From Closterium sp. NIES-65 (lineage: Eukaryota; Streptophyta; Zygnematophyceae; Desmidiales; Closteriaceae): 64,000 nucleotides of DNA. This document shows positions 40,029 through 54,901 of the stretch, in pieces (within the stretch, counting starts at the first letter, position 1; every line of letters begins with the position of its first letter). The DNA lies in the NCBI GenBank assembly GCA_948144175.1, contig CANXME010002486.1:3720001-3784000 (forward strand), given 5' to 3'. The notes below the pieces were generated by a model that worked only from the letters and a program-made list of their open reading frames with translations, was not told where the DNA came from and made no database searches. The translations under genes and the position numbers were made by a program.

Positions 40029-43000
40029 ATGTCAGGGTGGGACGAGGGACAGGTGTTCTACAGCAACCAGTCGTTCCCCGAGTCGGAAGGGCCGGCCGGC
40101 GACGACGCGCTGGGCGACGCGGGAATCACGCGATACGCCGCGCAGAAGAAGCTTCGCGAGTTCGTGCGAAACTTCCACGATCCGCAGTATCATGACCGCT
40201 TTATCTACAGGTGCGCCGCGTGCGGTAACCCGCTGCCGTTACCAGCACAGCACAGCAGGCCACCTCGCACCGTGCGGTCCCCGCCCCCGCTCAACGTGGG
40301 CCCCTCCCTTCCCTGCGACCAGCTGGGCTTTAAAATCCCTCACAAACCGACGGATCCGCGCCGTGAGGTTCCCGTCGTCCCCTGCGCGCCGTGCCCTCCC
40401 TACATGCGGTCCGCGCCCTTCCTTACTCGCAAATTCCCTCCTCTTATCCCGCCTGTTCCTGCCTCTCATGACCGGGGATCACATGGCCGCCGGGGCTCAC
40501 ATGGCCGCCGGGGCTCACATGGCCGCCGGGGCTGCACAGCGTCATACGCCGCCGTGTCCCGTTCCCCTCCTCCCACGGCAACCCCCCTTGCCCCCATTCC
40601 GCAGGGAGCGGGTGCAGGAGGGGGTGGCGTGGTGGAGGTTGATCCGGAGCACGTGGCGGTTTGGGGGCGGCCAACAGCACACCGTCTCCCCCCCCTGTCT
40701 TTCCCCACTCCCCCATCACCCGCGGTTGCTCCAGGGAGCGGTTGCAGGAGGGGGGCGGCGTGGTGGAGGTGGACTTGGAGGACCTGGCGAGCAAGGAGGA
40801 GGGGCTGTGCCGCCTCATGCGCACGCGCCCCGCTGACATGCTGCCGCTGGTGGGTGGGATGGGTCCCCATGGATCCTCATGGAATTTGATTGCCCTGCTC
40901 TACTTTCCCTTGCCCGTGTGTCTTTCTCAACGTAGAGCATTAGTTTCTCATGAGCGCTCTGAGTGTCTTTCGTTATGTATTCGTCTTTCTCTCTGCCTGC
41001 CTGCTCCGCCTCCTCGCTTCTCCCGCTTCTGTGCTCCCTTCTCTCCCCCCACTCCTCCCTCCCTCTTTCTCACCCGCTTTGTGCTGACGTGGCAGTTGGA
41101 GGTGGCAGCAGCTGAGGTGGCAGCGAGCGTGCGGCAGAAGGTGATGGGGGAGAGTGGGGAGCTGGAGGATGCACGAGTGCCGCCCGTGCAGGTGCTGCTC
41201 AAGAGCTCCGAGGACGCCATGCCCATCAGGGCTTTAACGGTGCGTGCCATGCCCATCCGGGCTTTAACGGTGTGTGCCATGCCCATCCGGGCTTTAACGG
41301 TGTGTGCCATGCCCATCAGGGCTTTAACGGTGTGTGCCATGCCCATCCGGGCTTTAACGGTGTGTGCCATGCCCATCCGGGCTTTAACGGTGTGTGCCAT
41401 GCCCATCCGGGCTTTAACGGTGTGTGCCATGCCCATCCGGGCTTTAACGGTGCGTGCCATGCCCATCCGGGCTTTAACGGTGTGTGCCATGCCCATCCGG
41501 GCTTTAACGGTGTGTGCCATGCCCATCAGGGCTTTAACGGTGTGTGCCATGCCCATCCGGGCTTTAACGGTGTGTGCCATGCCCATCAGGGCTTTAACGG
41601 TGTGTGCCATGCCCATCAGGGCTTTAACGGTGTGTGCCATGCCCATCAGGGCTTTAACGGTGTGTGCCATGGCACACATCACACGCATCACGTGCATTAC
41701 TTCCTCGGCCCTTACTCCCAACCATGCCGCGCCATGACTCCTCTCTGCAGACCTGCCTTCCATGCTCCCATTTCACTTTCTCTCTTTTCTTCTGGTGCGG
41801 TAGCAACTGGGTGTGTTGCATCGCTGCCCAAGTGATTTCTGCTTGACCCCTGACAACACTTCTCCCCATAACCCTTTATTCCCCCTCCTTCCCCCATCAG
41901 GCAGCATGGCTCGTCTATTGGGTGAAGATATCACGCATTGTGATCGCTCCGTTTCTCTGCCTCCCCCCTTCTCCCTCCACCCCCCACCAGGCGGCATAAA
42001 CATCTCATCTGGTGAAGATCGCAAGCATCGATTTTCCACCTCTTCCCTTGTTTGCTCTCCCTCTCCCTCTCCCTCCCCTCTCTCCCCACGTCTGGCCACC
42101 CGTCACCGCACCGCACCAGGCAACACAGATCGCCCATCTGGTGAAGATCTCGGGCATCGTGATTGCGTCCTCGCGAGCCAAGGCCAAGGCCACCTCGGTG
42201 GTGCTCATGTGCCGCTCCTGCAAGAACGTCAAGGCCATCCCCTGCCGCCCGGGCCTGGGTGGCGCCATCATCCCGCGCACCTGCGACCGCACCCCCCAGG
42301 TAGCGCACCTGCGACCGCACCCCCCAGGTAGCGCACCTGCGACCGCACCCCCCAGGTAGCGCACCTGCGACCGCACCCCCCAGGTAGCGCACCTGCGACC
42401 GCACCCCCCAGGTAGCGCACCTGCGACCGCACCCCCCAGGTAGCGCACCTGCGACCGCACCCCCCAGGTAGCGCACCTGCGACCGCACCCCCCAGGTAGG
42501 TTGCATTCTCCATGGGCGAGGTGGGTGTGCCGTGGCAATGAGTTGTGTGGCACGTGACGACCGCACATGTGACTGCACCCACCAGGTAGGTTTCATCTTC
42601 ATTTTCCATGGGCAAGTGGAGTGTAGAAGACGAATAAGCACACGGTCAAGGATGCGTGTGATGCAAGGTTATCCAGATGGGCGTTTGGAACAAGGAGCAG
42701 AGAACCACTTCCGTCCATCCTGGTCCCAAAAGGGTCCAGGCTGGGAGACCCCATGTGTGGAGCTGCTGCTGATTAAAATTACAACTCTCTTCTTTCCCTC
42801 CTCTCCTTTCTCCTCTCCTTCTGATGTTTCAGACCTGATTTTCTTTTATTCCAGTCCCCTTCCTTGCTTATCCCCTTCCTTGCTTATCCCCTTCCTTGCT
42901 GATCCCCTTCCTCGTTTCCCGTCTCCCGCCTGCCTCCATCCACCCCTTGTCGGTGCGAGCAGCCAGGGGAGGAGCCATGCGGGGTGGACCCGTGGGTGGT

Positions 43001-54500: not shown

Positions 54501-54901
54501 AAATTGCGGGGATGAGCAGGAGATGAGCAGGGAGAGCAGGAGATGAGCTATGCTATTGAACGAACAAGGGAGCATGATAGGATGGGGTTCAGGAGGCGTA
54601 CCTTGAGGAGGGGCGTACCTTGAGGAGGGGCGTACCTTGAGGATGGGCGTACCTTGAGAAGAGCGAGATCACGGGCGAGGTCGCGTGGGTAAGAAAGGAG
54701 GTCTTCGTGTGGGGCGAACTGCGAGGGGTTGACATAGATGGACACAGCCACCACATCTGCGAGCGAGGCCGCCAGGCGCACGAGAGAGAGGTGGCCTTCG
54801 TGCAGATACCCCATGGTGGGCACCAGTGCCACTGTGCGCCCCTGGCAGTGCTGCTTGCGCGACCACTGCCGCATGGCTTCCTTCTCACTGATTACCTCCA
54901 T
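51557..54901 (-). CDS. panC: Pantothenate synthetase (5 exons)
   Basis: Joins pantoate and beta-alanine with ATP to make pantothenate, the CoA precursor; the plant enzyme is cytosolic, and no targeting peptide is seen here. Exons on the minus strand: 54901-54653, 54226-53885, 53520-53407, 52165-51989, 51679-51557. All phases are 0 and the total of 1005 nt gives 334 residues, against about 310 in Arabidopsis. Motifs: ATP-binding [10 protein letters not shown] (28-37, HxGH at 34-37), [38 protein letters not shown] (~183-190), the KMSKS-like loop GLAMSSRN (~218-225), and the C-terminal RLIDNVEI. The start [13 protein letters not shown] is the usual place. An Ala/Pro-rich insert at ~103-140 and a longer Ala-rich stretch in exon 4 explain the extra length. 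It converges on MCM5. Introns 1 and 3 start with donor-derived minisatellites. Confidence 0.94.
51862..51980. repeat. 21-bp minisatellite in PanC intron 4
   Basis: About five copies of CCATCCCATGCTGCTTCATC plus T within 10-130 bp of the exon 4 donor (minus strand). The unit does not include exon sequence. Confidence 0.92.
52170..52820. repeat. 26-bp and 23-bp minisatellites ending at the PanC exon 4 acceptor
   Basis: Two abutting arrays fill the end of intron 3. The first has about 13 copies of a 26-bp unit (GCCACACAGACAGGCCGCAT plus GGCAGG). The second has about 13 copies of a 23-bp unit (GCGGCGGGGATAGGCATGGC plus AGG), some with an inserted CCG. The acceptor itself (minus strand CCTATCCATGGCAG) resembles the 23-bp unit, so this may be the acceptor-side counterpart of the donor arrays. 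Very low divergence. Confidence 0.94.
53040..53085 (-). other. Echo of PanC exon 3 end
   Basis: On the minus strand, GCCATGAGCAGCCGCAACGT then GCGCATCAGATC...AGCACAGGCAGCAG copies the end of exon 3 (coding [16 protein letters not shown]). It lies in intron 3 beyond the 17-bp array. Confidence 0.75.
53148..53415 (-). repeat. 17-bp minisatellite at the PanC exon 3 donor (16 donors)
   Basis: On the minus strand the unit is GTGAGCAGAGGCAGCAG, which begins GT, ends AG and repeats the last bases of exon 3 (GGCAGCAG) plus the donor GTGAGC. The true donor is at 53406, and 15 further copies follow. C/T variation (CTGCTG or CTGTTG on the plus strand) marks individual units. Confidence 0.95.
53636..53680 (-). 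other. Echo of PanC exon 3 start
   Basis: The minus strand reads CACATGCGCGACCTTGACAT then GGCATT, encoding HMRDLDMA, as in the exon 3 start VRDLDMA. It lies about 120 bp upstream of the real acceptor, in intron 2. Confidence 0.65.
54592..54662 (-). repeat. 17-bp minisatellite at the PanC exon 1 donor (4 donors)
   Basis: On the minus strand the unit is GTACGCCCCTCCTCAAG. It begins GT, ends AG and repeats the exon 1 end CTCAAG plus the donor GTACGC. Donors lie 17 bp apart (plus-strand GTAC at 54598, 54615, 54632 and 54649). Confidence 0.95.

Follow-up and report, generated by a model that had tools for sequence, protein, structure and literature searches.

Tandem repeats lie across the 5' splice sites (donors) of 8 of the 21 introns of MCM5 and PanC, two genes in the 64,000-nucleotide stretch of Closterium sp. 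NIES-65 DNA analysed here (the window). The introns concerned are MCM5 introns 3, 4, 5, 15, 16 and 17 and PanC introns 1 and 3, and the repeat units hold 6–25 exon bases plus the GT. These repeats probably arose as tandem duplications, by slippage or microhomology, that straddled a donor by chance, then expanded like ordinary minisatellites and were filtered by splicing. Support comes from the straddling units themselves, from one empty site and incomplete end units, from arrays that differ in length between two copies of the locus, and from a bias of short units towards donors as opposed to the two-sided occurrence of long units.

Arrays in MCM5 and PanC and their second copy

The MCM5 gene extends from ATG to stop at 40029..50688 on the forward strand, with 18 exons and 17 introns (the donor of intron 9 is GC). 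The joined exons give an uninterrupted protein of 762 aa which matches MCM5 in the PDB (best E 8e-215), and a spliced aligner given this protein recovered the same 17 introns. PanC (pantothenate synthetase) is found on the reverse strand at 51560..54901 and has 5 exons and 4 introns in a model guided by E. coli PanC, the low end of the last exon being approximate. Scans of the window for tRNA and Rfam families gave no matches. Kinesin and tRNA-synthetase families were also located in the genome.

All MCM5 repeats are on the forward strand. The array at intron 3 (41216..41671) has 15 units of 30 bp followed by a 6-base partial unit (GCCATG) and includes 24 exon bases, while the array at intron 4 (42275..42499) has 8 identical units of 28 bp plus 1 base and includes 25. 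Intron 5 has 4.7 copies of a 21-bp unit (43042..43140) with 20 exon bases according to TRF, or 14 by ungapped match, and intron 16 has 12 units of 22 bp plus a 4-base partial unit (ATGC; 48907..49174) with 8 exon bases. The repeated region of intron 17 (49606..50123) consists of five 29-bp units with 10 exon bases (49606–49754) and, after them, a second, related array of 7.9 units of 47 bp (49752–50123). On the reverse strand, PanC intron 1 (start 54652) has 3.8 copies of a 17-bp unit at 54595..54658, and PanC intron 3 (start 53406) has 16 copies of a 17-bp unit at 53147..53420, 15 of them past the first donor. Only 7 of the 8 donor repeats are listed by TRF, because MCM5 intron 15 has a single 19-bp duplication of about two copies (48078..48112; 10 exon bases; a 16-base match at a shift of 19).

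The same eight introns had been named in an earlier reading of the letters by a model (the sequence-only reading), which described tandem arrays that start exactly at the exon end, with units made of the last 6–24 exon bases plus the donor. A repeat is indeed present at each of the eight donors and its unit does combine exon end and donor, but the repeats begin 6–25 bases inside the exon, and that of intron 15 is just one two-copy duplication. The rows of equivalent donors that it described are created by the arrays.

Comparison of the eight units showed no relation among them (lowest shuffle P 0.033 over 28 pairs), and spread of a mobile element or of introner elements was rejected on this ground. 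In the five arrays examined for their ends, the last unit is partial at MCM5 introns 3, 16, 17 and 4 (6, 4, 4 and 1 bases, respectively), which we tentatively read as microhomology; the single leftover base at intron 4 says little, and the 15-base imperfect partial unit of intron 5 is unreadable. Several arrays vary in sequence from unit to unit. The donor arrays of introns 4 and 17 are perfect (100% matches), so their inner donors keep their sequence. An array of the same form begins at the stop codon of MCM5 (50684..50839, forward strand; 6 exact units of 24 bp starting with TCTGACC).

The locus occurs a second time, in closely similar form but with other array lengths, on contig C1122. The larger blocks of the two contigs are 96–99% alike outside the worst arrays, and they share the units but not the copy numbers. 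The MCM5 intron bases differ by 0.6% (41/7027) between the window and C1122, and the intron lengths are unequal in 11 of 17 cases. Unit numbers in the window and in C1122 are 15 and 5 for intron 3, 8 and 1 for intron 4, 5 and 1 for intron 17, and 15 and 29 for PanC intron 3. C1122 has one unit fewer in the PanC intron 1 array and 3 units in the stop-codon array, while the intron 15 duplication has two units in both copies. With unit numbers that differ between locus copies, the arrays are variable number tandem repeats. Long arrays of this kind are easily misassembled, but an assembly or sequencing artefact is very improbable given identical units in different copy number on two contigs this similar, the many unrelated units, and the unit variation within several arrays.

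Where the window has the intron 4 array, C1122 has an empty site. Its exon 4 reads CAG|GTAGGTTGCATTC across the junction and the window shows the same intron past the array, which places the duplicated segment between exon position −25 and intron position +3. The 29- and 47-bp arrays of intron 17 are likewise missing from C1122. As the units are unrelated, one site is empty and end units are partial, the arrays look like independent short tandem duplications that were expanded later, in agreement with the proposal that the same event had happened independently at many donors. The fact that the repeats cross exon and donor could also point to intron gain by the arrays. This is the least credible of the explanations weighed here, as 200 bp or more separate the end of the donor array from the acceptor in each of the 8 introns, and introns 4 and 17 are independent of their arrays because C1122 has the same introns without them.

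Judged from the predicted protein, the first donor is presumably the one used for splicing; MCM5 spliced at this donor aligns to mcm5-A in the PDB and shows no insertion at any of the six array junctions. If inner donors were used instead, the arrays could be coding or regulatory and alter the protein or the efficiency of splicing. Read-through of introns 3 (30-bp unit) and 5 (21-bp unit) stays open over the 30 codons examined, which makes in-frame inclusion of these two arrays conceivable, and the intact inner donors of the perfect arrays would also fit such a role. It is nevertheless improbable, since read-through of introns 4, 15, 16 and 17 meets stops, the second copy lacks the arrays of introns 4 and 17, copy numbers vary widely, and mcm5-A has no insertion at the array junctions.

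Repeats at donors and acceptors

Arrays were counted with TRF (units of 12–70 bp, at least 2.5 copies) in 16 genes plus MCM5 and PanC, and chance expectations assume that arrays, each reduced to a single unit, are placed uniformly along the introns. L020, L023, L026 (GroEL query only) and L030 (three E. coli factors) had no usable models and were omitted from the intron counts. For MCM5, 5 TRF arrays fall on donors where 0.56 are expected (P=1.4e-4), and for PanC 2 where 0.26 are expected (P=0.024), but these P values are not independent tests because the sequence-only reading picked both genes for this feature.

Outside the window, the 136 introns of the 16 genes have 7 arrays on donors, 0 on acceptors and 65 in internal positions, with 2.24 expected per side (P=0.0064). 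A set of 103 introns gave 5 donor arrays against 1.49 expected (P=0.016), while a strict set of 89 introns showed no donor excess (2 against 1.28, P=0.37). Of the 7 donor arrays found beyond MCM5 and PanC, 5 do not pass this strict filter and 3 (L014 6507, L015 8412 and L015 9288) have doubtful junctions. The predicted enrichment at donors is thus seen among the 136 introns and gone among the strict 89; beyond the window the excess is moderate and varies with the strictness of intron filtering. MCM5 and PanC are a hot spot, and with donor arrays in ≈5% of the outside introns (7/136) the term "systematic", as first applied to them, is too strong.

With acceptors as the control, the bias towards donors was borne out. 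Over all 157 introns the ratio of donor to acceptor arrays is 14:0 at at least 2.5 copies and 16:2 at at least 1.9 copies, and the 14 donor arrays compare with 3.06 expected. The depletion at acceptors is weak when taken alone (0 against 3.06 expected, P=0.043; at least 1.9 copies, 2 against 4.49, P=0.17).

The wider spectrum of local duplications, 576 in 240.8 kb, is bimodal with a second mode at 140–148 bp; a 40-kb E. coli control had 0. IleRS (L036+L037) and L040 are part of this size spectrum and of the flank analyses, and are not in the array, echo, codon or class-span counts. Across 17 gene models, duplications of the short class cross 10 donors and no acceptor, and those of the long class (≈145 bp) cross 35 donors and 36 acceptors (Fisher P=0.002).

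These counts bear on whether donors are themselves prone to duplication, its rate being raised at 5' splice sites by U1 engagement, R-loops or a polymerase that pauses there. Such a hot spot would agree with the numbers of donor arrays above uniform placement (7 against 2.24 in the 136 introns, and 14 against 3.06 with MCM5 and PanC) and with acceptors that have no arrays at at least 2.5 copies. It agrees poorly with the variable length of the exon part (6–25 bases) in the arrays of the window, with 4–6-base partial units at the end of 3 of the 5 arrays examined, with the array at the MCM5 stop codon, with a ≈145-bp class that has no preference for donors (35:36), and with the lack of excess in the strict subset. 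We therefore consider it rather unlikely. Of the causes suggested in the sequence-only reading, a donor-specific break or a process linked to U1 is not supported, given the varying starts, the partial units, the stop-codon array and the long class, and selection after duplication fits better. Neutrality alone does not account for the donor excess in the independent sample (7 against 2.24), which hints at either a donor hot spot or longer persistence of arrays there. That excess vanishes in the strict subset.

Echoes of exon edges at about 145 bp

For about 44% of the exon edges sampled, the adjoining intron contains an echo. Examples from MCM5, all on the forward strand, are the echoes of the exon 2 start (40605..40624, shift 130) and the exon 8 start (44816..44852, shift 124), each upstream of the respective acceptor, and, within intron 11, an echo of the end of exon 11 together with the donor (46254..46290, shift 138). 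When the introns of other genes were searched, exon-edge echoes (score at least 14) numbered 0.8 and 0.0 of 120, which also speaks against introner elements. Splice dinucleotides are kept in most echoes, GT in 35/40 and AG in 32/36; these counts were made without a required intron-side match, as requiring two matching intron bases overstates the retention. The exon part and the spacer of the echoes are correlated at −0.66, which is partly forced by the imposed limit of 100–200 bp.

Differences between echo and exon amount to ≈20% at third codon positions and ≈2.6% at second positions, a ratio of 0.13. Simulated neutral echoes have ratios of 0.57–0.66, and 0.29 at the highest rate tried. Because of this codon-position pattern the ≈145-bp echoes do not fit simple neutral copies. 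Echoes also contain fewer stop codons than expected (4 against 10.5, P=0.02), and the unpolarised differences in LepA echoes number 5, 3 and 16 at the three codon positions. The indels count against coding constraint, as 18 of 22 shift the frame (2/3 expected by chance, P=0.17). First positions of the echoes show more G>A and C>T changes than the reverse (32 to 7), a pattern that a decaying copy would give.

The two LepA loci were compared by intron-by-intron alignment and a four-way comparison. The first form of the flank-divergence comparison of echoes gave a signal indistinguishable from noise, and it was redone by flank quality. Three of the 10 LepA echo pairs, with flanks 29/30 identical, were taken as orthologous, and they have 3, 2 and 4 changes by codon position on the echo side and 0, 0 and 16 on the exon side. 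The remaining 7 pairs (flanks 9–17 of 30) were left out; their echo sides have 11, 7 and 27 changes, leaning to third positions. For 37 flank-filtered echo pairs from the LepA, MCM3, CCT7 and MCM5 gene pairs the changes are 6, 1 and 3 on the echo side and 0, 0 and 8 on the exon side.

Three candidate explanations for the echoes were rejected. CpG decay as the source of the third-position pattern does not match the balance of C>T and T>C (60 and 59). The other LepA locus is not favoured as the source of the echoes, which match their own exon about as often as that of the other locus (21:28 and 33:22). If echoes were stand-alone alternative exons, their outer edge should carry AG in donor echoes or GT in acceptor echoes, and inspection by eye showed no clear excess of either. 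A tentative possibility is that the genes are covered by nucleosome-sized tandem duplications of ≈145 bp, and that echoes with splice signals are kept in coding shape. Either the echoes would then have a use, such as providing alternative exon ends or a template for rewriting the exon, or third positions of exons outpace introns several-fold.

A proposed filter by splicing and its significance

If the arrays are chance duplications filtered by splicing, the genome would often produce local tandem duplications in two size classes, ≈10–50 bp and ≈145 bp, and splicing would decide which of them survive. After a short duplication over a donor, the 5'-most donor would still yield the old mRNA and the extra copies would become intron; because the old mRNA is kept, such a duplication should be close to neutral and free to expand. 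At an acceptor, a short duplication would add AGs between branch point and exon, or alter the spacing, and be removed. A ≈145-bp unit could come with a branch point, a pyrimidine tract and an AG of its own, and may be tolerated at both intron ends. Selection by splicing would in this way cause the asymmetry between donors and acceptors, and a mutational enzyme presumably lies behind the duplications.

The sequence-only reading knew of no described case of systematic donor-anchored minisatellites, and a single precedent is in print. In the human IFI6 (6-16) gene a minisatellite provides several splice donors (Turri et al., 1995, as cited in PMC4526556), and its structure, a repeat of minisatellite size across an exon end with a GT donor in the units, is also present here. 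As in Closterium, the units form a row of donor sites; unlike here, IFI6 is one gene in which two downstream units are used as donors, whereas we find several unrelated arrays with predicted donors (PMC4526556). Human segmental-duplication genes have internal tandem repeats at exon-intron boundaries (mean unit 30 bp), with 27 intron modifications after curation (PMC2812944). These resemble our arrays in being minisatellites at exon-intron borders that vary between gene copies and change intron structure, but they come from filtered recent paralogues with alternative transcripts, and the passages covered give no donor/acceptor asymmetry or 145-bp class (PMC2812944). In potato RdRp, an intron was gained by tandem duplication across an intron-exon border (PMC4974935). 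The duplication reuses parental splice signals as here, but it formed a new intron while existing introns lengthen in Closterium (PMC4974935). Genomes of the Closterium psl complex show extensive copy number variation, and NIES-65 has 876 Mb and a mean intron of 485 bp (PMC10407611). The terms "minisatellite" and "tandem duplication" are absent from the main text of that paper, and its passages covered here do not describe repeats at splice sites. Single cases such as IFI6 are already known; the literature covered here had no account of the frequency, of the size mode or of a coding-like divergence in the echoes.

The introns of this alga seem to lengthen in good part by copying their own borders, and the making of material for intron growth and of alternative splice sites thus becomes visible. 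The rows of equal donors (≈30 in the second copy of PanC intron 3) are a natural experiment on how the spliceosome chooses among identical 5' splice sites, and likewise on why donors seem to tolerate short repeats and acceptors do not. Frequent side-by-side copying would make intron ends unusually changeable in this alga.

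Donor-spanning repeats in MCM5 and PanC

The assembly examined here comprises 874,075,685 bp in 2400 contigs. In the MCM5 model (window 40029–50688, forward strand) 18 exons encode 762 aa without interruption, and the best PDB match of this product is the chain mcm5-A (8q6o; E = 8e-215); with the product as guide, a dynamic-programming spliced aligner recovered all 17 introns. PanC (window 51560–54901, reverse strand) has five exons and four introns. The sequence-only reading had proposed that tandem repeats with mutually unrelated units span the exon end and the donor in 8 of these 21 introns. 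Both points were borne out, with six such introns in MCM5 and two in PanC, and a lowest shuffle P of 0.033 among the 28 pairs of the eight units. The units in MCM5 are 30 bp at intron 3 (24 exon bases), 28 bp at intron 4 (25), 21 bp at intron 5 (20), 19 bp in two copies only at intron 15 (10), 22 bp at intron 16 (8) and 29 bp followed by 47 bp at intron 17 (10), and those in PanC are 17 bp at both intron 1 (6) and intron 3 (14). They do carry exon bases together with the donor, but with a range of 6–25 exon bases instead of the claimed 6–24. The donor of MCM5 intron 9 is GC rather than GT (GCGAGT, window 45585).

Another array, with a 24-bp unit (window 50684–50839), contains the MCM5 stop codon in its first unit, and has six exact units in the window and three in C1122, the contig with a second, closely similar copy of the locus. 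As it begins at the stop codon, it suggests that the anchor is the border of coding constraint and not donors only.

Indirect evidence points to the first donor as the one putatively used at the MCM5 arrays. With this donor assumed, no residue is inserted relative to mcm5-A at any of the six array junctions, and one residue is missing in the mcm5-A row near the intron 4 junction. Read-through into the array meets a stop within the 30 codons examined at introns 4, 15, 16 and 17, and is open across the same 30 codons at introns 3 and 5.

Comparison with the second copy of the locus

The larger blocks of C1122 are 96–99% identical to the window, and one block with arrays is 91% identical. According to the excerpted text of a paper on the Closterium peracerosum-strigosum-littorale complex, the sequenced cells were haploid (PMC10407611), and the C1122 copy is therefore probably a duplicated segment rather than an allele. 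Its MCM5 intron 4 is an empty site, where the exon is followed by GTAGGTTGC, identical to the sequence after the array in the window. Judged from this site, the duplicated segment covered the last 25 bases of the exon and the first 3 of the intron, and the array may have been gained in the window or lost in C1122. Intron 17 in C1122 has a single donor and neither the 29-bp nor the 47-bp array.

The numbers of MCM5 units in the window and C1122 are 15 and 5 (intron 3), 8 and 1 (intron 4), 5 and 1 (intron 17) and 2 and 2 (intron 15), leaving out introns 5 and 16, whose units have indels or variants. PanC intron 1 has four and three donors, and at PanC intron 3 the first donor is followed by fifteen and twenty-nine units. 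Only 41 of 7027 aligned MCM5 intron bases differ between the copies, yet 11 of the 17 introns differ in length. Among the five MCM5 arrays examined for a partial last unit, those of introns 3 (GCCATG, 6 bases), 16 (ATGC, 4), 17 (TGAG, 4) and 4 (G, 1) end as would be expected from slippage between short repeats, and the intron 5 array closes with 15 imperfectly matching bases not readable as a slippage partial unit.

Donor and acceptor arrays in other genes

Family searches gave 20 further regions, 16 of which yielded usable models (L020, L023, L026 and L030 are outside the set). Seven MCM genes, by resemblance presumably subunits 2, 3, 4, 6, 7, 8 and 9, were modelled with MCM5 as guide, CCT2, 3, 4, 5 and 7 with PDB chains, three Cpn60 with E. 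coli GroEL, and LepA with E. coli LepA. From the 140 introns, the 136 of 50–2000 bp were used. Their mean length is 507 bp; table 1 of the excerpted paper gives 485 bp, and 876 Mb, for NIES-65 of the Closterium psl complex (PMC10407611).

Arrays were called with a tandem-repeat finder (TRF; unit 12–70, at least 2.5 copies). For the null, each array was reduced to a single unit, with uniform placement across its own intron and edges; uncollapsed lengths, which give lower expectations and smaller P values, were not used. In the 136 introns, 7 arrays lie at donors, 0 at acceptors and 65 in the interior, where chance would put 2.24 on each side (P = 0.0064). The corresponding counts are 5, 0 and 50 in the 103 introns whose junctions have no gaps nearby (expected 1.49, P = 0.016), 2, 0 and 47 in a strict set of 89 (expected 1.28, P = 0.37), and 14, 0 and 81 in the 157 introns obtained by adding MCM5 and PanC (expected 3.06). 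At a threshold of at least 1.9 copies, 9 arrays are at donors and 2 at acceptors among the 136 introns, and 16 and 2 among the 157. Donors are thus favoured over acceptors and the window is a hot spot; outside it the excess at donors over chance is moderate, and the strict set shows none.

Human introns arising from tandem arrays were reportedly described by Zhuo et al. in 2007. No paper on systematic donor-anchored minisatellites was found among the matches listed from the open-access literature. The near precedents, as far as excerpts of these papers describe them, are IFI6, a human minisatellite with multiple splice donors (PMC4526556), human tandem repeats bordering exons (PMC2812944) and intron gain via tandem duplication (PMC4974935).

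Long duplications and exon-edge echoes

A search for local duplications found 576 in 240.8 kb (23 loci and the MCM5-PanC stretch) and none in a 40-kb E. coli control. Their unit sizes are bimodal, with 10–40 bp and a sharp mode at 120–165 bp (peak bin 140–148). Across 17 gene models including MCM5, the short class (≤60 bp) spans a donor in 10 cases and an acceptor in 0, with 103 lying within introns and 1 elsewhere, whereas the long class (100–200 bp) spans a donor in 35 and an acceptor in 36, with 59 within introns and 20 elsewhere (Fisher P = 0.002 for the donor/acceptor split). The long class occurs 4 times in the 10.7 kb of MCM5, and 4 times in 26 kb and 0 times in 8.7 kb of two transposon-rich-looking stretches of the window.

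The window also holds a 16-bp satellite (3–13428, about 829 copies, 75% matches) and, at 55707–56975, two ~270-bp direct repeats around ~725 bp, by eye a candidate short LTR element; the first repeat is followed by TGGTATCAGAGC, which we take to be a plant-type primer site motif. A putative hAT-like transposase region (57000–61300, forward strand) and a putative Copia-like polyprotein (61700–64000, reverse strand) were likewise recognized by eye.

Copies of exon edges within the neighbouring intron, here called echoes, were counted in 120 introns (103 plus the 17 of MCM5) at a score of at least 14. The end of the preceding exon is copied in 53 introns and the start of the following exon in 52; introns from other genes gave mean counts of 0.8 and 0.0. 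Of the 70 echoes with a shift of 100–200 bp, 44 have intron flanks whose relatedness still exceeds the 95th percentile of the control, so intron was part of the duplicated units. Most echoes retain the splice dinucleotide, GT in 35 of the 40 derived from donors and AG in 32 of the 36 derived from acceptors. Region L030 (C1863:48500–58499) has, at ~2770–5065, ten copies, mostly ~200 bp apart, of the exon end and apparent donor of a GTPase, presumably IF-2-like. The two copies of an MCM3-like gene (L016/L032) have intron 5 lengths of 1090/1914 bp and intron 8 lengths of 774/394 bp, and 0.25% of their intron bases differ.

A short duplication over a donor would leave the first donor at its old place. 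As 3' splice sites are chosen by the usual scanning rule, a short duplication over an acceptor should damage splicing, by inserting extra AGs and shifting the branch point. A ~145-bp unit could carry its own splice signals. Tolerance of short units at donors, together with such self-supplied signals, would account for the 10:0 versus 35:36 split.

The third-position bias of the echoes does not fit this mechanism. Compared with their own exon, 38 donor echoes differ by 4.9, 2.9 and 19.0% at codon positions 1, 2 and 3, and 33 acceptor echoes by 4.8, 2.3 and 21.1%. The observed ratio of position 2 to position 3 is about 0.13; simulated neutral echoes under the same detection gave 0.57–0.66 as long as the rate per branch did not exceed 0.2, and 0.29 when it was 0.3. 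Yet the frame is broken by 18 of 22 indels in echoes. Three LepA echo pairs taken as orthologous have 3, 2 and 4 changes by codon position (9 in all) versus 0, 0 and 16 in the exons, and the seven pairs left out have 11, 7 and 27, leaning to third positions. Between the LepA loci L031 and L034, 40 of 255 exon third positions differ (15.7%) versus 264 of 3840 aligned intron bases (6.9%). Between the recent copies there is no clear sign that exon third positions change faster than introns, with 8/762 versus 41/7027 differing for MCM5, 1/572 versus 15/5983 for MCM3 and 0/301 versus 26/2948 for CCT7. The codon pattern of the echoes may reflect either a coding use of the echoes or fast evolution of the exons.
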